From assembly GCA_900542385.1 (NCBI GenBank), contig UQNP01000029.1:1-16475 (forward strand): a DNA stretch of 16,475 bases, written 5' to 3'. A program made the translations under genes and the position numbers. Shown piece after piece: positions 2,084 through 16,475 of this stretch; within the stretch, counting starts at the first letter, position 1, and each line of letters starts with the position of its first letter. The notes below the pieces were generated by a model. The model made no database searches. It was given only the letters and a program-made list of their open reading frames with translations, and was not told the DNA's origin. The stretch comes from an uncultured Eubacterium sp. (GTDB lineage: Bacteria; Bacillota; Clostridia; Peptostreptococcales; Anaerovoracaceae).

Positions 2084-3100
2084 TCACAATTCCAGATTCG
2101 GCACCGCATCGAGAGTCAGATCATCCGCACCCTGCTCTCTGTATTTATAGTACGCGGCGCACCCTATCATGGCTGCATTGTCCGTACACATGAGCGGAGT
2201 AGGACAGTACAGCTTTATCCCTTGTCTGCTGCACTCTGCCTCCATCATCTGTCTCAGCATGCTGTTTGCCGCAACTCCTCCTGCTATCACTATCTTGTCT
2301 TTATCCATATCTACAGCGGCTCCAACGGTTTTAGCCACGATCACATCGAGCACTGCCGCCTGAAAGCCGGCCGCCACATCTGCTGTATTTATTTCCCGTC
2401 CTGCCTGTCTTTCTGAATTCACATAGTTCAGAACGCCTGTCTTTATGCCGCTGAAGCTGAAATCCAGGCTTCCTTTTTCAAGGAATACACGCTTGAATTC
2501 AACGCTGTGAGGATCTCCCTCCTTTGCAAGCTTATCTATCAGCGGTCCTCCCGGATATCCAAGCCCCAGGACTCTGGCAACTTTGTCGTATGCTTCTCCG
2601 GCCGCATCATCTCTCGTAGATCCAAGCACACGGCATTTATTGTATCCCGTCACCTCAACTATATTGGTGTGTCCTCCCGATATAACCAGCGCCATGAATG
2701 GAGGCTCCAGATCTTTATGCTCCACGTAATTTGCACATATGTGTCCGTGTATATGATGCACTCCTACGAGAGGTTTGCCCGCCGCCAGCGCATATGCTTT
2801 TGCAGTGGCGATCCCTATGAGGAGCGCCCCCACAAGTCCCGGACCGTAGGTCACACCTATCATATCCACCTCTTCCATGCTCACCGACGCTTCTTCAAGA
2901 GCGCGCGCCGCCACCATGTTTATATTTTCAAGATGATGTCTGGAGGCTATCTCCGGTACTACGCCTCCATACAGTTTATGTACATCTATCTGCGACGAAA
3001 TGACATTGGAGAGCATTTCACGCCCGTCCAACATCACGGCAGCCGCAGTCTCGTCGCAGCTTGATTCTATTGCAAATGTTACAGTTTTTCCGTTCTTCAT
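2084..3100 (-). CDS. tsaD: tRNA N6-threonylcarbamoyladenosine synthase subunit TsaD
   Basis: TsaD is the catalytic subunit that transfers the threonylcarbamoyl group from TC-AMP to A37 of ANN-decoding tRNAs, working with TsaB and TsaE in the cytoplasm. The 338-residue length is normal. Visible family features are an N-terminal IESSCDET, the metal-binding HxxxH in VHHIHGH (His116 and His120), SGGHT at about 141-145, and the C-terminal CTDNAAMIG with the metal-ligand Asp. All are intact. The ATG overlaps the stop of the upstream 59-residue ORF as ATGA. The nearest purine-rich stretch (GAAGGGCGAAG) is rather far upstream, so translation probably depends on coupling. All three dedicated t6A proteins other than TsaC are encoded in this operon. 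Confidence 0.97.
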   Translation of the reverse strand: MKNGKTVTFAIESSCDETAAAVMLDGREMLSNVISSQIDVHKLYGGVVPEIASRHHLENINMVAARALEEASVSMEEVDMIGVTYGPGLVGALLIGIATAKAYALAAGKPLVGVHHIHGHICANYVEHKDLEPPFMALVISGGHTNIVEVTGYNKCRVLGSTRDDAAGEAYDKVARVLGLGYPGGPLIDKLAKEGDPHSVEFKRVFLEKGSLDFSFSGIKTGVLNYVNSERQAGREINTADVAAGFQAAVLDVIVAKTVGAAVDMDKDKIVIAGGVAANSMLRQMMEAECSRQGIKLYCPTPLMCTDNAAMIGCAAYYKYREQGADDLTLDAVPNLEL

Positions 3101-3276
3101 ATGTTTCTTCGCCCTTCTTCAAGTTTCTTCTCGCACTGGTTTTCACCGTTCAGATGTCTGCAGTTTTCACACGACCTGTAGTCGCTCATGCTGAAAACAT
3201 CAAAATCATGACGTCTCGAAAACTTCCTGCACGTCGAAGCTACTACATCCATATCGCTTTTAGAGAATTCATCCAT
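3097..3276 (-). CDS. Small Cys-rich hypothetical protein in the t6A operon
   Basis: I do not recognise this 59-residue ORF. The start at 3276 is supported by a strong GGGAGG 5-6 nt upstream; an in-frame ATG at 3300 has no such site. It overlaps tsaD by 4 bp (ATGA), which is typical of a translated, coupled operon gene. The protein is hydrophilic with no signal peptide or membrane helix. Cys16, Cys36, Cys39, His41 and Cys48 include a CxxC-x8-C cluster (CENCRHLNGENQC) that could bind zinc or a metal, but no family is assigned. The corresponding slot between rimI and tsaD is empty in the Bacillus ydiD-ydiE arrangement. A 71-bp gap separates it from rimI. Confidence 0.7.
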   Translation of the reverse strand: MDEFSKSDMDVVASTCRKFSRRHDFDVFSMSDYRSCENCRHLNGENQCEKKLEEGRRNI

Positions 3277-3347
3277 AATATCCTCCCATAAATAATACAT
3301 ACCCGATAATTTTTATCTTCCTATATTATTTATGGAAATCATGTTTT

Positions 3348-3797
3348 TTATTCGGCGTGCCTCCACATTATGAGAGCATCCTCGCCGTTGTTGAGATAAT
3401 ACTTTTCTCTCACTCCTTCAACGGCAAATCCGAATTTTTCATAAAGACCTATCGCCGCAGCGTTGGATTTCCTCACTTCAAGAGTATGATGCTTTATGCC
3501 TTCTCCGCATGTGAATTCCAGCATAACGCCCATTATGCCGGAAGCTATCTTCCTGCTTCTGAAACCCGGTCTCACCGCTACATTGGTAATATGCCCTTCA
3601 TCGCCTATCCACCACATACCTGCATAGCCTACCACTTTGTCCTCAAGCTCCGCCACTATGTAAAACGCTCTGGGATTCTGCTCAAGCTCGTAGGCCAGGG
3701 ATTTCCTGCTCCACGGATCAGGGAAACACAGATTTTCTATCTCATAGATATCTTCCACATCTCCTATGTCCGCCTGTCTGACTAAAAGATCTGCCAT
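3348..3797 (-). CDS. rimI: GNAT-family ribosomal-protein S18-alanine N-acetyltransferase-like protein (RimI)
   Basis: This 149-residue GCN5-related acetyltransferase would acetylate the N-terminal amine of ribosomal protein S18 or other proteins using acetyl-CoA. The fold signature runs in order: IRxA-like start, ENLCFPDPWSRKSL near 22-35 (typical of RimI), the beta4 stretch HITNVAVRPGF, and LEVRKSNAAAIGLYEKFGF with the expected Tyr general acid. An oddity is the acetyl-CoA pyrophosphate loop, usually R/Q-x-x-G-x-G/A: it reads RSRKIA here, so the central glycine is lysine. The ATG at 3797 lies 1 nt beyond the tsaB stop and has AAGGA upstream. An upstream in-frame extension would run through tsaB coding sequence and is rejected. 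Operon position between tsaB and tsaD is as in B. subtilis ydiD. Confidence 0.9.
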   Translation of the reverse strand: MADLLVRQADIGDVEDIYEIENLCFPDPWSRKSLAYELEQNPRAFYIVAELEDKVVGYAGMWWIGDEGHITNVAVRPGFRSRKIASGIMGVMLEFTCGEGIKHHTLEVRKSNAAAIGLYEKFGFAVEGVREKYYLNNGEDALIMWRHAE

Positions 3798-3798
3798 A

Positions 3799-4524
3799 TC
3801 ACTTTTCCTTTTTCTGTTTTTCCAGCAGCTTCCTCTCCGCTTCAGCAAGACGCATATAGTCGGGCTTAAGATCAAGGAATCCGACGCTGTTTCCCGAAGA
3901 AAAGATTTTCTCTCCGATCCTCGCCACTGAAACTGCATCCTGATATCTTATGCTTTCCGGTGCGATCTCCGCTCCCGAAGGTCTAAGCTGTGCTATTTTT
4001 TCTTCGTAGGAATCGCATCCATCGCCAAACAGCAATATTCGATCATATCTTTCTGTTTTCGCCATAAATTCTTCTATGCTGTAAGGCGATCCTTTTATCT
4101 CTTCCTGTGGAACTCCGTCTCGTATGATATATCCGCCTCCGTATATCTGTGATCTTCTCGCGTCCAGGATAGGACATACGAGGGTATCCTCCTCATATCC
4201 GCCTTCTCTCTCAACTGCCCTGAGAGCCAGCGCTTCAAGGGTAGGCACCGCTGCGCACGGTATCCCAAGTATCTGAGAAAGAGCCCTTGCAGAAGATACG
4301 CCTATCCTTATCCCCGTAAAGGACCCTGGACCTCTCGATACTGCTATTCCATCTATATCGCCTAATGACAATTTATTTTCTTTTACGACAGAATTCACCT
4401 GCACCATCAGATTCTGCAAATGGGAGAATCTGTCATGACCCTGCAAATGTCCTATGATCTTTCCATCCTCTGCAAGGGCTACCGAAGCAAAAGCTCCCGT
4501 CGTTTCCACTGCTAAAATATACAT
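3799..4524 (-). CDS. tsaB: tRNA threonylcarbamoyladenosine biosynthesis protein TsaB
   Basis: TsaB is the non-catalytic ASKHA-fold partner of TsaD. It dimerises with TsaD and recruits TsaE for t6A37 synthesis. The 241-residue protein begins with the family hallmark [15 protein letters not shown] and carries RGPGSFTGIRIG at about 69-80 followed by ALSQILGIPCAAVPTLEAL. The C-terminal part ends with the LKPDYMR motif usual for TsaB/YeaZ. The ATG overlaps the 3' end of tsaE by 13 bp. A GGAAGGGGAG purine stretch lies about 11 nt upstream, inside tsaE. The gene is intact, and its job is confirmed by its neighbours tsaE and tsaD. Confidence 0.96.
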   Translation of the reverse strand: MYILAVETTGAFASVALAEDGKIIGHLQGHDRFSHLQNLMVQVNSVVKENKLSLGDIDGIAVSRGPGSFTGIRIGVSSARALSQILGIPCAAVPTLEALALRAVEREGGYEEDTLVCPILDARRSQIYGGGYIIRDGVPQEEIKGSPYSIEEFMAKTERYDRILLFGDGCDSYEEKIAQLRPSGAEIAPESIRYQDAVSVARIGEKIFSSGNSVGFLDLKPDYMRLAEAERKLLEKQKKEK

Positions 4525-4958
4525 CTATATATACGCTCCCCTTCCGTATCGCTGTACTCCATCTTTATCACCGCGGCGTCGCCTGGCAAAAGCTCTTCTA
4601 TCATATCTGCCCATTCGACCACGCACAGACCGTCTCCGTAAAAATATTCTTCATATCCTATCTCATACATTTCCTCCGGATCTTCTATTCTGTACACGTC
4701 AAAATGATACAAAGGTATCCTCCCGGATCTATATTCTTTGACTATGTTGAAAGTAGGGCTTGTTATGACTTCGCTGACGCCCATGCCGGCAGCTATGTAT
4801 TTGGTAAGGGTAGTCTTGCCCGTCCCGAGATCTCCAATAAGCGCCAGCACCGATCCCGGCTCCGCCTTTTCACCTATTTTTCTGCCGAGCTTTGCAGAGT
4901 CCTCTTCGCTTTTTATCGTTATTTCTATGTTTTTTCTTTCTTTTTCTATTTCTTTCAT
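4512..4958 (-). CDS. tsaE: tRNA threonylcarbamoyladenosine biosynthesis ATPase TsaE
   Basis: TsaE is the P-loop ATPase that drives cycles of the TsaB-TsaD complex in t6A synthesis. Walker [10 protein letters not shown] lies at about residues 42-50, followed by [11 protein letters not shown] (switch region), LYHFDVYR (Walker-B-like) and the conserved VVEWAD. From the chosen ATG at 4958 the protein has 148 residues, close to the family norm. An in-frame ATG at 4970 is also possible (152 residues), but it has no Shine-Dalgarno and would sit about 3 nt after the predicted transcription start. The ATG at 4958 has GGAAGAG just upstream. The 3' end overlaps tsaB by 13 bp. It is the first gene of the leftward operon. 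Confidence 0.94.
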
Positions 4959-4979
4959 TTTCTCTTCCATAACTAATGT

Positions 4980-10755: not shown

Positions 10756-10776
10756 CAGCATTTTTTAAGGTTGGTG

Positions 10777-11460
10777 ATGTATATGTACAGAATATTCATA
10801 GTTGAAGACGATGACATCATATCCGGCAAAGTAGCTCAAGCCCTCCAAAACTGGGGCTTTGAGACTGCCGTATGCGAAGATTTCCGTCAAGTCACTGATG
10901 AAATGATACGCTTCGATCCTCATCTGGTGATAATTGATATATCCCTGCCTTTTTTCAACGGATATCACTGGTGCAGCGAAATACGAAAATTTTCTAAGGT
11001 GCCTGTCATGTTTCTCTCTTCAGCAGGAGAAGATATGAACATAGTCATGGCAATAAATATGGGCGGAGATGATTTCGTCGCAAAACCTTTCGATATGCAG
11101 CTCCTGCTGGCCAAAATACAGGCTCTGCTGAGACGCTCCTACGATTTCAATGCGCAGACCAAAACAGGAGTATTCGAACATAATGGCATGATATTCGACA
11201 GCTCTGCATGCACAGTGACTTTCGGTGACGCAAAAGCGGAACTTTCAAAAAACGAAAACAGGATACTGACGGTCCTTCTGGAAAACAAAGGCAGCGTAGT
11301 CTCAAGAGACACCTTGATGAACAAACTGTGGGAAACAGATTCCTTCGTCGATGAAAACACGCTGTCCGTAAATGTCGCACGTCTAAGGAAGACCCTTGCA
11401 GGCGCCGGTGTTGAAGACATCATAAAAACAAAGAAAGGCATAGGATATATAATAGAATGA
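10777..11460 (+). CDS. bceR: BceR-like OmpR-family response regulator
   Basis: This 227-residue regulator has an N-terminal receiver domain (about 1-120) and a C-terminal winged-helix DNA-binding domain (about 128-227). Acidic residues E10-D11-D12, phosphoacceptor Asp54 in VIIDISLP, the Ser in LSSAGE, and Lys103 in AKPF are all present. The sequence GYHWCSEIR and the FLSSAGEDMNIVMAINMGGDDF stretch closely resemble BceR-type regulators, which activate genes for peptide-antibiotic ABC transporters. In-frame TTG (10771), GTG (10774), ATG (10777) and ATG (10783) occur; ATG 10777 fits best 6 nt after AAGG, with 10783 as alternative. It overlaps the kinase gene as ATGA. Confidence 0.92.
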   Translation: MYMYRIFIVEDDDIISGKVAQALQNWGFETAVCEDFRQVTDEMIRFDPHLVIIDISLPFFNGYHWCSEIRKFSKVPVMFLSSAGEDMNIVMAINMGGDDFVAKPFDMQLLLAKIQALLRRSYDFNAQTKTGVFEHNGMIFDSSACTVTFGDAKAELSKNENRILTVLLENKGSVVSRDTLMNKLWETDSFVDENTLSVNVARLRKTLAGAGVEDIIKTKKGIGYIIE

Positions 11461-12458
11461 AAAAAATCGGTTTCTTTTCATGTCTGCCGGCATATATACG
11501 CGGCAAAATAAAAACCATAGTATTTTTCCTGCTTTCAGCAGTCATTCTCTGTTTCGTGCTGTTCCTCTACCGCCAGCAGCCTGAAGCTGTCGCATACGCC
11601 GCAGTAATATCCCTTATAATCGGTCTTGTCATGGTCTTTACCGATTACTGCCGCTTTGTCGAAAAACACAGACGGCTTACTGAAGCTGCTAAAAACGCCG
11701 AGACCGCCTGCGGCAATCTTCCCAAAACAGATAAACTCATAGAAAAAGATTACCAAAATATCGTAAAGCTCCTTGACAGAAGCAGAAACGATATCCTGGA
11801 CAAAACGGAATCCCAGAAAAAATTCATGCAGGATTACTATGCCATGTGGGTACATCAGATAAAAGTACCTATTTCAGCCATGCGGCTTTTGATGAGCAAT
11901 GAAGAAAAGAATTCTCCTCTCAGTATAGAACTGTTCAAGATAGAGCAGTATGTGGAAATGGCTCTGTCCTATGTACGCCTCAACTCTGATTCTACCGATT
12001 ACCTTATCAAAGAATACGATATAGATGATATCGTCAAGCAGGCTGTAAGAAAATACGCCCCGCTCTTCATAGCAAAAAAAATCAGACTCGATATCGCCGA
12101 TATGAACATGAAAGTCTTGACCGATGAAAAATGGATACTTTTCGTAATAGAACAGATCCTCTCCAACTCTCTCAAATACACTAAGAAAGGTTATATAAAA
12201 ATATACACCGAAAAACCCAAGACTCTCGTAATCGAAGACAGCGGTATAGGCATTGCTCCGGAAGATATAAAAAGGATCGGCGAAAAAGGCTTCACAGGAT
12301 ACAACGGCCGCATAGAAAAGAAGTCTACAGGTCTCGGATTATATCTGTGTACTGAAATACTTCATAATCTCTCTCACAAAATGACTGTTGAATCCGAATT
12401 ATCAAAAGGGACACGCGTATACATAGATTTTGAAATGAAATATATGATATTCGAATGA
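11457..12458 (+). CDS. bceS: BceS-like intramembrane-sensing histidine kinase
   Basis: This 333-residue kinase has two closely spaced N-terminal membrane helices (about 18-37 and 45-62) with almost no extracellular loop, the hallmark of intramembrane-sensing kinases that receive their signal from a BceAB-type transporter. The H box WVHQIKVPISAM carries phosphoacceptor His133. The catalytic domain has the N box QILSNSLKYT (Asn237), G1 EDSGIGIAP, and G2 GLGLYL. It is encoded by a gene overlapping bceR by 4 bp (ATGA), implying coupled translation. A 144-bp gap follows before bceA. The input is expected to be BceAB activity during bacitracin or lantibiotic-like peptide attack, but the inducer cannot be named. 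Confidence 0.94.
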   Translation: MKKIGFFSCLPAYIRGKIKTIVFFLLSAVILCFVLFLYRQQPEAVAYAAVISLIIGLVMVFTDYCRFVEKHRRLTEAAKNAETACGNLPKTDKLIEKDYQNIVKLLDRSRNDILDKTESQKKFMQDYYAMWVHQIKVPISAMRLLMSNEEKNSPLSIELFKIEQYVEMALSYVRLNSDSTDYLIKEYDIDDIVKQAVRKYAPLFIAKKIRLDIADMNMKVLTDEKWILFVIEQILSNSLKYTKKGYIKIYTEKPKTLVIEDSGIGIAPEDIKRIGEKGFTGYNGRIEKKSTGLGLYLCTEILHNLSHKMTVESELSKGTRVYIDFEMKYMIFE

Positions 12459-12482
12459 TAAACTCCCTATCCTGCACTATTC

Positions 12483-12519
12483 TTTCAAAAATGTAAGAAA
12501 CAAAACGGATATTGTAAGA
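12483..12519 (+). promoter_or_regulatory. Candidate BceR operator upstream of bceAB
   Basis: TTTCA-AAAA-TGTAA (12483-12496) is one mismatch from the TNACA-N4-TGTAA inverted repeat reported for Bce-like regulators. A second TGTAAGA (12513-12519) repeats the first (12492-12498) at exactly 21 bp, two helical turns. It lies just upstream of a candidate promoter for bceA. Confidence 0.5.
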
Positions 12520-12526
12520 CAAATAA

Positions 12527-12556
12527 ATGGCATACACCTTTTCCCTCTGCTATCCT
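12527..12556 (+). promoter_or_regulatory. Possible bceA promoter
   Basis: ATGGCA (12527-12532), an 18-bp spacer and TATCCT (12551-12556) preceded by TGc could form a weak, activator-dependent promoter directly downstream of the candidate operator. The leader to bceA would be about 40 nt. Confidence 0.35.
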
Positions 12557-12602
12557 TTTAACGTAAGCAAAATACTGCACAAAACAAAAGGAGGTATGAC
12601 GT

Positions 12603-13370
12603 ATGGCCATTTTAGAAGTAAACAATCTGAAAAAGATATACACCACACGCTTTGGCGCCAACAGTGTACAAGCGCTCAGCAGCGTATCTTTTTCCGTAGA
12701 AAATGGGGAATATGTAGCTATAATGGGGGAATCAGGCTCGGGGAAAACCACTCTTCTCAACATATTAGCCGCCCTCGACAAACCAACGCGAGGCACTGTC
12801 CTGCTCGAAGGAAGGGACATTACCGCTATCAGCGAAAAGGAACTTTCCACGTTCAGACGAAATAATCTCGGATTCGTATTCCAGGATTTCAATCTGCTGG
12901 ACACCTTCAATCTCATGGACAATATATTTCTTCCTCTCGTCCTTTCGGGAAAGAAATACCAGGAAATGAACAAACGTCTCAAACCGCTCGCCGCCAAGCT
13001 CGGCATCTCAGATCTTCTCTACAAATATCCTTATGAAGTATCCGGCGGACAGAAGCAGCGTGCAGCCATAGCCAGAGCACTTATAACTCAACCGAAACTT
13101 ATACTCGCCGATGAGCCTACAGGCGCTCTTGACTCACGTTCAGCAGACGATCTTCTCAAACTTTTCAATCAGATAAACAACGATGGTCAGACGATAATAA
13201 TGGTCACTCACTCCATAAAAGCGGCGAGCCATGCCAGCCGAGTCCTGTTCATCAGCGACGGCAGAGTATATCATCAGATGTACAAAGGCGGAGCGACCAA
13301 CGAAGAAATGTTCCAGAAGATATCCGGAACTCTGACTACCATGGCGACAGGCGGTGGTCCAAATGTTTAA
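12603..13370 (+). CDS. bceA: BceA-like ABC transporter ATP-binding protein
   Basis: This 255-residue ATPase energises the FtsX-like permease encoded next to it; together they remove cell-wall-targeting peptides from their lipid target and signal to BceS. Walker A GESGSGKTT (42-50), Q-loop Gln94 in FVFQDFNLL, signature SGGQKQR from 147, Walker B LILADEPTGALD, and H-loop His193 in THS are all intact. It belongs to the MacB/LolD/BceA-type clade (SGGQKQR and ADEPTGALD), typical of single-ATPase partners. A strong AAAGGAGGT precedes the ATG by 7 nt. Its 3' end overlaps the bceB start by 8 bp, so the two are translationally coupled. Confidence 0.95.
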   Translation: MAILEVNNLKKIYTTRFGANSVQALSSVSFSVENGEYVAIMGESGSGKTTLLNILAALDKPTRGTVLLEGRDITAISEKELSTFRRNNLGFVFQDFNLLDTFNLMDNIFLPLVLSGKKYQEMNKRLKPLAAKLGISDLLYKYPYEVSGGQKQRAAIARALITQPKLILADEPTGALDSRSADDLLKLFNQINNDGQTIIMVTHSIKAASHASRVLFISDGRVYHQMYKGGATNEEMFQKISGTLTTMATGGGPNV

Positions 13371-15405
13371 GCTGTATCCAAGTATGGCGCTGACTAACAT
13401 AAAGAGCAGCCGAAAAACATATATACCTTACATGATCTCGTGTATGCTGACAATATCTCTGTACTACATTATCTGTTCTCTTTCGTCAAACGAAAATCTG
13501 ACAGACATATACGGCGGCAATACGATCCAATCATATATGGGCATGGGACAGTTCATAGTAGCAATTTTTGCAGTGATCTTTCTGTTTTACATCAACAGTT
13601 CCCTGATAAAACGCCGTAAAAAAGAATTCGGACTTTACAACATACTGGGCATGGAAAAACGTCACATTGCAAAAGTGATATTCATGGAAACTCTGTACAC
13701 CTTCCTCGCCTCTTTCATTTCAGGGATAATTTTAGGCATACTGCTCGATAAGCTGATGTATCTCGTAATCCTGCGCATTTTCAACGAGTCTGTACCTCTG
13801 GGCTTTTATGTTTCTGTAAACGGCATAATAATGTCTCTGGCTCTCTTTGGGATCATATTCATGCTGATATTCCTGAATTCTGTCAGACAGGTATACACAT
13901 CCAAGCCTGTGGAACTTCTCAAAAGCGACAACAGAGGAGAAGCTGAACCCAAAGCAAAATGGGTGCTTGCCATCATTGGTGTTATCTGTCTCGCCGCAGG
14001 CTACTTCATAGCAGTGACTACCGAAAATCCGGTATCGGCCTTTGCGCTGTTTTTCGTGGCGGTAGTACTCGTAATAATAGGCACGTATCTCGTATTCACC
14101 GCGGGTAGCATAGTTCTGCTCAAACTGCTGAAGAAAAACAAAAATTACTACTACAAGACGACTCATTTCGTAAGCATATCTTCCATGATGTACAGAATGA
14201 AGAGGAACGCGGTAGGTCTCGGCAACATATGCATCCTTTCAACCATGGTGCTGGTGATGATCTCCGCAACTCTGTCCATAAACCTGGGACTCGACGATTC
14301 CTTCAGCAGAACTCACCCGAGAGAAGTACACATATCAGCTATGGACAATGACCCGCGCTATGAAGAGGTCATCAATATCACGGAAAACGCTTTTAAAGAT
14401 CAGGGATTGGAGTTTGAGGACAGGGTAGATTATAGACAGCTCAGCTTTTCTGCGGTATACGAAAGAGAAGACGATTACTTTGTGACCGATACAGACGCAT
14501 ATTCTTCAGGCATGTCATCGATACAGGCATATAACGATCTGGGAACGCTGACATTCATTCCTCTCGAGGATTACAACGATTACACAGGAAAAAATGAAAC
14601 TCTGAAAGAGGACGAAGTACTCGTATACGCTGAAAACGCACCTCTTGAAGACGATAATATAAATATTTTCGATGACTCATTCAGCGTCAAGAAGCATCTT
14701 GATGAATTCCTGCCCAACGGCAGTCCGTGGGTGAGCACACCAAACATCTACGGTGTAGTTGTAAAAGATATGAACGTTATGGACAGCCTGCTTGAAAAAC
14801 AGGCGGAAATATACGGAGACAACCAGTCATTCATCATGAGAGAATACATGGCTGACATAAAAGGCGGCAGCGAAGGAAAAGAAGCTGAAATCAAAAAAGC
14901 TTCGGATATAATATCAGCAAAAATCCAGCCGCAAAATTCTAATGGGGAAGCCGCATCCGGCGAATTCTCCGGATACGTCGAATGTGCTGCCGTTGAGAAA
15001 GAGACTTACGGCGACAACTTCATAGGGCTTTTCTTCATAGGTATATTCTTAAGCATCCTTTTCATAATGGCAACGGTGCTGATAATGTACTACAAACAGA
15101 TAACAGAGGGATACGAAGACAAGGAGCGATACGAGATACTCCAAAATGTGGGTATGAGTCATAAAGAAGTAAAAAAATCCATAAATTCTCAGGTGCTTAC
15201 TGTATTCTTCCTGCCTCTGATAACCGCAGGTGTTCATGTGGGGTTTGCATTCCCGTTCATATTCAGGATACTGACCCTGCTCGGACTGCTGAACATGAAG
15301 CTATACGCCATGTGCAATATCGGCTGCTTCCTTGTATTCGCGCTTTTCTACGCACTGGTATATATGCTGACTTCAAAGCTGTACTACGGAATAGTCAAAA
15401 AATAA
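13363..15405 (+). CDS. bceB: BceB-like FtsX-family permease with large extracellular sensor domain
   Basis: This 680-residue membrane protein has about ten predicted helices: roughly 20-42, 57-80, 105-135, 150-175, 200-220, 223-250, 285-306, 553-575, 612-640 and 650-675. Between helices 7 and 8 lies an extracellular domain of about 240 residues (308-550), as in BceB-type permeases where it contacts the peptide and lipid target. That domain is acidic and Tyr-rich (many DD, ED and DN pairs). ATG 13363 overlaps bceA by 8 bp and follows GGCGGTGG; a GTG at 13354 is the alternative start. Function is likely self-protection from cationic or lipid-II-binding peptides, but the exact substrate is unknown. 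Confidence 0.93.
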   Translation: MFKLYPSMALTNIKSSRKTYIPYMISCMLTISLYYIICSLSSNENLTDIYGGNTIQSYMGMGQFIVAIFAVIFLFYINSSLIKRRKKEFGLYNILGMEKRHIAKVIFMETLYTFLASFISGIILGILLDKLMYLVILRIFNESVPLGFYVSVNGIIMSLALFGIIFMLIFLNSVRQVYTSKPVELLKSDNRGEAEPKAKWVLAIIGVICLAAGYFIAVTTENPVSAFALFFVAVVLVIIGTYLVFTAGSIVLLKLLKKNKNYYYKTTHFVSISSMMYRMKRNAVGLGNICILSTMVLVMISATLSINLGLDDSFSRTHPREVHISAMDNDPRYEEVINITENAFKDQGLEFEDRVDYRQLSFSAVYEREDDYFVTDTDAYSSGMSSIQAYNDLGTLTFIPLEDYNDYTGKNETLKEDEVLVYAENAPLEDDNINIFDDSFSVKKHLDEFLPNGSPWVSTPNIYGVVVKDMNVMDSLLEKQAEIYGDNQSFIMREYMADIKGGSEGKEAEIKKASDIISAKIQPQNSNGEAASGEFSGYVECAAVEKETYGDNFIGLFFIGIFLSILFIMATVLIMYYKQITEGYEDKERYEILQNVGMSHKEVKKSINSQVLTVFFLPLITAGVHVGFAFPFIFRILTLLGLLNMKLYAMCNIGCFLVFALFYALVYMLTSKLYYGIVKK

Positions 15406-15608: not shown

Positions 15609-16475
15609 ATGCTGGGATATGTGAAGATATACAAGAGCGAACTTAAAGTACGCGAATACGAAATATACTGCGGTTATTACTGCGGCGTGTGCAAATCAAT
15701 AGGCAGACGATACGGGCAGCTTCCGAGAATGGTGCTCAGCTATGATGCGGCGTTCCTTGCCCTGTTTCTCGCCTCTTTTGACGATGCCCCGGATGAGCCG
15801 CTCCAGGAACACTGTGCGATACATCATGTAAAGAAAAAAACTCTGATATACAACAAAGCTGTAGATTACGCCGGAGACGTAATGCTTATTTTAGCATGGC
15901 ACAAGCTTTTGGATGATGTTAAAGATGAAAACAAACTATATGCGAAAACAGCTATGCTCCTGATGAAAAATGTATACAAGAAGCTGTATTCAAAATATAA
16001 AAATCTCTGCAAAAAAACAGAAAACGCACTAAAGGAACTTTCATCTTTGGAAAAATCAAAATGCGACAGTATAGATATAGCCGCCGATCAGTTTTCAACG
16101 ATAATGGAGACAATATTTGAAGAAGGCGTAAAAATACTATACCAGAATTCTCTTCCGCCTGAAACTGTCGAATTCGTAAAAAAAACCGGCTGGCACATGG
16201 GTAAATGGATATACATGATAGACGCCGCAGATGACATAGAAGACAATATAAAAACAGGGGCTTACAATCCTCTCATTTACCGTTTTGCATACGATTCGGA
16301 CAAAGAAAATGCAGACCAGTTCAGAAACAGGATAGAGGACTCTCTCAGATTCAATTTATTTCACTACCTTGCAGTTACAGGTAATTGCATCAACTCTCTT
16401 GATATCAAAAAAAATCAAGGTATAATAGATAATGTGGTTTATTTTGGTCTGAACAAAAAGACAGAAGAAGTTATC
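15609..16475 (+). CDS. DUF5685-family protein, C-terminus cut by the window end
   Basis: The frame from ATG 15609 stays open to the end of the window (289 residues, no stop). The N-terminus MLGYVKIYKSELKVREYEIY, the Cys cluster YCGYYCGVCKSIG (Cys21, 25, 28), LPRMVLSYDAAFLAL, and the late KKNQGIIDNVVYFG segment match what I know of the DUF5685 family of Clostridia, whose function is unknown. The match to the family's C-terminal motif suggests only a few residues are missing. The protein is mostly helical, with no signal peptide. Two Asp-rich motifs stand out: DDVKD (102-106) and DDIED (208-212) inside IDAADDIEDNIKTGAYNP. Both resemble the Mg-binding DDxxD motifs of all-alpha isoprenyl and squalene/phytoene synthases. 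No Shine-Dalgarno precedes the ATG. Confidence 0.85.
   Translation, partial: MLGYVKIYKSELKVREYEIYCGYYCGVCKSIGRRYGQLPRMVLSYDAAFLALFLASFDDAPDEPLQEHCAIHHVKKKTLIYNKAVDYAGDVMLILAWHKLLDDVKDENKLYAKTAMLLMKNVYKKLYSKYKNLCKKTENALKELSSLEKSKCDSIDIAADQFSTIMETIFEEGVKILYQNSLPPETVEFVKKTGWHMGKWIYMIDAADDIEDNIKTGAYNPLIYRFAYDSDKENADQFRNRIEDSLRFNLFHYLAVTGNCINSLDIKKNQGIIDNVVYFGLNKKTEEVI

Follow-up and report, generated by a model that had tools for sequence, protein, structure and literature searches.

DUF5685, a family with a predicted isoprenoid synthase fold, is linked to proteins with cysteine-rich tails: a possible bacterial S-prenylation system

Polyprenyl and squalene/phytoene synthases are relatives by fold. 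An Arg pair following the first Asp motif is a hallmark of the chain-elongating synthases, and an i, i+4, i+8 spacing of the second motif is typical of squalene/phytoene and class I terpene synthases. Protein farnesyl- and geranylgeranyltransferases of eukaryotes have a different enzyme fold, and MoeN5 uses a small phosphorylated molecule as acceptor. The closest described systems are ComQ, PalQ and the P domain of ChrPC, peptide prenyltransferases resembling trans-isoprenyl diphosphate synthases (trans-IDS), which belong to the isoprenoid synthase superfamily and act on a ribosomal peptide (available parts of PMC13290415 and PMC10853753); ComQ lacks the second Asp motif (available part of PMC10853753). 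Here we consider a gene for a DUF5685 (PF18937) protein at the end of a 16,475-nucleotide stretch of an uncultured Eubacterium sp. (contig UQNP01000029.1), the whole of which is referred to as the window. By its predicted fold DUF5685 falls in the same superfamily as ComQ, PalQ and the ChrPC P domain. In contrast to ComQ, it has a second Asp motif and a site of three cysteines (Cys3 site), and its proposed acceptor is Cys in the tail of a chaperone, not tryptophan. Unlike in the ComQ/PalQ type, it is the linkage to a partner protein that was observed, whereas prenylation of that partner is inferred.

The open reading frame (ORF) spans positions 15609..16475 of the forward strand, on which all gene features below lie, and runs from an ATG start without a stop codon to the end of the window (289 residues). 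The gene is truncated there: relative P0002 (298 aa) is identical across the 289 shared residues, and judged from it the window cuts off the stop codon and the 9 residues before it. The protein matched the PF18937 profile over positions 1-271 of 272 with 279.2 bits (cut-off 26.7; E 4.6e-83), a full-length match that places it in DUF5685, a family of unknown function according to Pfam. A preliminary description of the window had reported DDVKD at residues 102-106 and, 106 residues further on, DDIED at 208-212 within IDAADDIEDNIKTGAYNP, together with an N-terminal Cys cluster, YCGYYCGVC. All of these are present in the translation, the cluster including C25 and C28. From them it had proposed a distant member of the isoprenoid synthase fold, which the structure prediction bears out: the predicted all-alpha fold is shared with prenyl synthases, and on this model DUF5685 almost certainly has the isoprenoid synthase fold. 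Squalene/phytoene and terpene synthases were absent from the 50 rows listed in the VIA comparisons, which was not counted against kinship.

Conservation was assessed on 113 loci, of which 80 were the best among 134 on named contigs and the other 33 came from a genome set; among these 33, L081-L084 are re-fetches of genes already included and do not occur among the representatives. With the window, the resulting 114 sequences were reduced by greedy choice to 51 representatives with <60% mutual identity, the window not being one of them. D102 was retained in 51/51 and D106 in 50/51 (N in L099), while D205 and D209 were found in all 51 and position 213 was either D (37/51) or N (14/51). Conversely, D103 and D208 were each kept in only 38/51 and D212 in 8/51, so that the expected invariance of all motif Asp residues failed. 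The two DDxxD motifs of the preliminary description thus exist in the window protein, but a pair of canonical, invariant DDxxD motifs was rejected, and because D103, D208 and D212 vary while D102, D106, D205, D209 and D/N213 are kept, the signature was rewritten as DxxxD ... DxxxDxxx(D/N). The first motif (D102-x3-D106; 15912..15926), delimited by conservation and by its hhalign alignment to the polyprenyl synthase DDxxD, lies at the C-terminal end of helix 83-107; the second (D205-x3-D209-x3-(D/N)213; 16221..16247) starts at the end of helix 184-208. In looser form, DxxxD/N and DxxxDxxx(D/N), both were matched by every one of P0002-P0121, the 120 best relatives among 849 matches.

Several further positions are also conserved, to differing degrees. 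C25, C28, C69, E148 (16050..16052), G198, Y202 and N220 (16266..16268, in a (Y/F)N loop past motif 2) were kept in all 51 representatives, R40 in 49, N275 and D156 in 48 each, and H72 in 37. C25-G-V-C28 (15681..15692) supplies two of the three invariant Cys residues and sits in the first long helix (14-35). C69-x2-H72 (15813..15824) lies in the loop that joins strand 65-68 to strand 76-79, and together with C25 and C28 would constitute a candidate metal site. R40 (15726..15728) is a candidate diphosphate contact.

Profile-profile comparison by hhalign, suggested in the preliminary description as a check, scored 28.9 for DUF5685 against squalene/phytoene synthases (25.5 in the reverse direction) and 23.1 over 196 columns against polyprenyl synthases (reverse 23.0), the latter with both motifs aligned. 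For comparison, polyprenyl against squalene/phytoene synthases gave 25.3. These runs used 23 of 30 polyprenyl synthases, kept by motif and length, and a squalene/phytoene set from which one of eight sequences (L130) was dropped; an earlier run, whose polyprenyl set included the stray unrelated ORF L138, was not used as evidence. When 36 unrelated neighbour families were compared in one direction, none exceeded 28.9 and one exceeded 23.1, scoring 26.0 over 17 columns. The sequence is thus compatible with kinship, but the scores are weak and prove nothing by themselves, and the argument for kinship therefore rests on the predicted fold. Likewise, a Pfam scan of the window protein up to E 10 (5 matches) contained no isoprenoid family, neither PF00348 nor PF00494, and searches of the PDB by sequence and by profile matched no isoprenoid synthase. 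That sequence searches miss the relation would suit a generic helical bundle carrying acidic motifs by chance; set beside the predicted fold, this reading is considered extremely improbable.

The motifs correspond to those of squalene/phytoene synthases (PF00494). Both share a DxxxD first motif and a second motif of acidic/Asn residues at i, i+4 and i+8, followed by an aromatic residue and Pro, and hhalign places D205, D209 and N213 in register with the N, D and D of NxxxDxxxD; it is the spacing that agrees, not the exact letters. DUF5685 differs in having no Pfam match to this family, no VAG-type stretch in columns 156-169, and an additional Cys site. With regard to trans-isoprenyl diphosphate synthases (PF00348), a chain-elongating prenyl synthase was rejected: there is no Pfam match and no Arg pair past motif 1 (R at position 111 in 4/51 and at 112 in 2/51 representatives). 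A GGKRxRP-type stretch is likewise lacking, just R40 being kept. The Cys3 site and beta hairpin of DUF5685 are not known from PF00348. The missing Arg pair, a hallmark of chain-elongating synthases, would also fit a non-catalytic scaffold of isoprenoid synthase fold that binds a Cys tail or a prenyl lipid; five near-strictly invariant Asp/Asn positions of metal-ligand type would, however, be unusual for a pseudoenzyme, and this alternative is judged quite improbable. In combination, the fold and the motifs point to a prenyl diphosphate bound via Mg, and DUF5685 is probably a diphosphate-metal enzyme.

The main new result concerns the neighbouring gene, for which all results stem from relatives, the window ending before it. 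When neighbours were clustered, a J-domain family emerged as the same-strand +1 neighbour in 87/110 loci (3 of the 113 could not be placed). Searched for directly, a J protein turned up immediately 3' of DUF5685, often overlapping it, in 102/113 loci (98/109 without the re-fetches). Two more, in L036 and L098, had been missed by the search pattern and were found by reading. As that pattern demands HPD or HAD, the presence of HPD in the 102 proteins is no independent test; still, Pfam DnaJ matched both partner proteins that were scanned (L066 and L001). Almost all of the J proteins (98/102) carry at least five Cys in their last 30 residues, with ends such as ICADCCCDCI or CCECMGGDLISCC. Without the re-fetches, Cys-rich ends were found in 81/96 same-strand +1 proteins versus 9/768 other neighbours. 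The tails mostly hold 4-11 Cys each, which among the 98 tails occur at position -4 in 65, -2 in 79 and -1 in 26, so no plain CaaX rule applies, in contrast to the substrates of the eukaryotic farnesyl- and geranylgeranyltransferases. Some individual loci stand apart: the J protein of L076 has no Cys tail, the locus ending shortly afterwards; L077 extends just 150 bases downstream, which precludes a neighbour call; and in L046 (9350-9700; re-fetch L084) the J protein stops before a tail whose letters lie in a shifted frame, a sequencing error or a real change.

The J domain itself is not a constant part of the association. Tail proteins without a J motif occur in L114, L119, L122, L123 and L124, and in L120 (Anoxybacter fermentans, named via P0122) DUF5685 and the tail are fused into one protein. 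Of 15 database matches of P0122, the first 13 (P0122 plus 12 relatives with lengths of 365-390 aa) keep the fusion, and the last two, weak matches of 287 and 293 aa, lack it. Because the tail persists without the J motif or as a fusion, the constant partner is the Cys tail rather than the J domain. A rather unlikely alternative is that DUF5685 is a class I isoprenoid enzyme acting on a small molecule, with the Cys-tailed J/TPR protein as its chaperone or membrane tether. The fold and motif spacing suit class I chemistry, down to the register of D-x3-D-x3-(D/N) with the squalene/phytoene motif, and a partner that is usually a J-domain protein would fit a chaperone. The retention of the tail in the absence of a J motif or in the fusion speaks against it, as does the lack of recurring biosynthetic genes: after the J family and a small membrane-type protein family (70/110 loci, at +2 in 64 of the 70), the next family occurs in 19 loci. 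As to the small membrane-type family (L066 9593-10102 and equivalents), two members gave no Pfam match and one, scanned against NCBIfam, no match there.

The association was then quantified across 299 genomes of one phylum, 33 of which encode DUF5685. Of the 33, 32 have a Cys-tail protein within the fetched region: 27 beside DUF5685, 22 of these bearing the J motif, four at a distance of 4-8 kb and one as a fusion. Two of the 32 tails have four Cys among their final 30 residues, the other 30 five or more. A TPR-plus-tail profile derived from 26 DUF5685 neighbours, seven of them in the 299 genomes, matched 21/299 genomes at E <1e-20, and all 21 are among the 33. The naive chance of this 21/21 overlap is about 4e-24, a figure that ignores relatedness and the seven profile rows. 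Weak matches (E 2e-10 to 5e-6) occurred in eight more genomes, seven of them without DUF5685, and inspection of the eight ORFs found no Cys tail at the end. A DNA pattern for CCECxGGD matched ten genomes, all DUF5685-positive; nine of the matches are tails beside DUF5685, and as a control the reversed pattern matched one genome (G046). The tenth match (G185) is not a tail and lies inside a prenyl-synthase-like protein that scores below the cut-offs of prenyl-synthase models (L166 736-1680, reverse strand), where CCECIGGD stands in the N-terminal part; its letters are common to several tails, possibly by chance. In our view a functional link between DUF5685 and the Cys tail is highly likely. 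Beyond these genomes, DUF5685 was found in Thermotoga maritima among 14 control genomes, and tblastn detected relatives in four phage-collection records (from faecal samples) and two plasmid records; of 116 pattern matches in a viral contig set, none encodes a relative.

In four divergent loci (L115, L116, L118 and L177) the tail gene lies 4-8 kb from DUF5685 on the opposite strand, in a row with a polyprenyl-synthase-like gene. Including L120, such a synthase gene occurs in five tail-bearing loci; Pfam confirms it in L115, L118 and L120, while the synthases of L116, where the gene is divided into two ORFs, and L177 were called by the look of the sequence. Hsp70-like genes are present in L115, L118 and L177 and absent from the 10 kb fetched for L116; Pfam confirmed one Hsp70 in L115, along with a DUF2232 membrane protein, the other Hsp70 calls again being by appearance. 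Similarity to the L116 tail protein led to that of L177, and the tail proteins of L115 and L118 were chosen for their number of Cys; the L116 query gave no match in genomes G253 (L118) or G139. Two Hsp70-like genes flank a gene of 220-235 aa, followed by the polyprenyl synthase, in L115 (1685-5498) and L118 (1366-5145), and the synthase products end near an SWFW motif in L115, L118, L116 and L177, and near WFW in L120.

The Cys3 site is reminiscent of Zn sites at which thiols are activated to undergo alkylation. A possible course of events would begin with DUF5685 binding an allylic (prenyl) diphosphate via Mg between D102/D106 and D205/D209/(D/N)213. The prenyl group would then be passed to Cys thiols at the Cys-rich C-terminus of the linked protein, usually a J-domain co-chaperone, with C25, C28 and C69 holding a thiol-activating metal, and the prenylated tail may anchor the chaperone to the membrane. 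In some divergent clades the polyprenyl synthase encoded alongside could feed DUF5685, with Hsp70-like genes there in three. A partner gene would be expected in the window's own genome as well. The proposed acceptor would thus be a protein, which differs from that of MoeN5. Given the Cys tail as constant partner and the prenylation of ribosomal products by ComQ and PalQ, S-prenylation of Cys is favoured over the small-molecule, metal and scaffold alternatives. Still, the overall explanation, an isoprenoid-fold enzyme prenylating Cys thiols in the tail of a linked protein, is put forward tentatively, and the S-prenyl transfer to tail Cys that it involves is a possibility rather than an expectation.

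Metal chemistry offers another account: a Zn or Fe-S centre would be formed or delivered jointly by the Cys3 site and the tail, and a metal-phosphate ligand distinct from prenyl diphosphates would occupy the isoprenoid-type pocket. The three invariant Cys of DUF5685 and the number of Cys per tail fit it. It would leave the conserved D102, D106, D205, D209 and D/N213 as well as the polyprenyl synthase linkage of the divergent loci unexplained, and is thought unlikely. A number of observations nevertheless weigh against S-prenylation or the linkage behind it. The profile scores for kinship are weak, one unrelated family reaching 26.0. Tails holding as many as 11 Cys might just as well be ligands of Zn or of an Fe-S cluster, and eight of the nine Cys-rich ends among other neighbours resemble those of endonuclease III, which are Fe-S ends. 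The TPR-plus-tail profile stems from DUF5685 neighbours, so that differently built tails elsewhere would escape it. G139 showed no tail, though its contig is just 12 kb long and its DUF5685 is fragmentary and interrupted by a stop codon; the tail gene is distant and on the other strand in the four divergent genomes; and the G253 tail, not matched by the L116 search, was chosen on Cys count alone. Finally, all characterised prenyltransferases of the ComQ/PalQ type modify tryptophan, not Cys, according to the available part of a 2026 review (PMC13290415).

In the window itself, a scan 5' of the DUF5685 gene found no promoter or terminator. Upstream, positions 10771-15405 encode, consecutively, a response regulator, a histidine kinase, an ABC ATPase and an FtsX-like permease, a layout that we take to resemble bacitracin-type sensing modules. 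A similar-looking permease stands 5' of DUF5685 in L001 and L003, and because bacitracin binds isoprenoid diphosphate the link between permease and DUF5685 may not be chance. Positions 2084-4970 (reverse strand) presumably contain genes of the tRNA t6A pathway (TsaD, TsaB, TsaE), in the midst of which lies an acetyltransferase gene, to judge from their translations.

A literature search, mostly of titles and abstract openings and with most subscription journals outside its reach, found no description of a DUF5685-tail system; the sole mention found by family name or accession is a passing one in the available part of PMC9403866. Within the literature covered, the system appears undescribed. 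The partner shows the layout of cysteine string proteins, a J domain with a Cys-rich C-terminus, which is a likeness and not proof of kinship; thiol lipidation, too, is shared with these proteins, here as the proposed outcome. A bacterial system for protein S-prenylation, made up of DUF5685 and its linked tail protein and acting on J-domain/TPR cysteine strings, is judged less likely than not. If true, it would involve a trans-prenyltransferase-type enzyme for protein Cys with an evolutionary origin separate from that of eukaryotic farnesyltransferase, and the tail proteins would be bacterial equivalents of lipid-anchored cysteine string chaperones. For a family that Pfam lists without a function there is now a predicted fold, along with a signature of the active site and a linked partner, and with them a testable question: whether bacteria lipidate Cys residues of their own proteins with isoprenoids, using an enzyme unrelated to farnesyltransferase.
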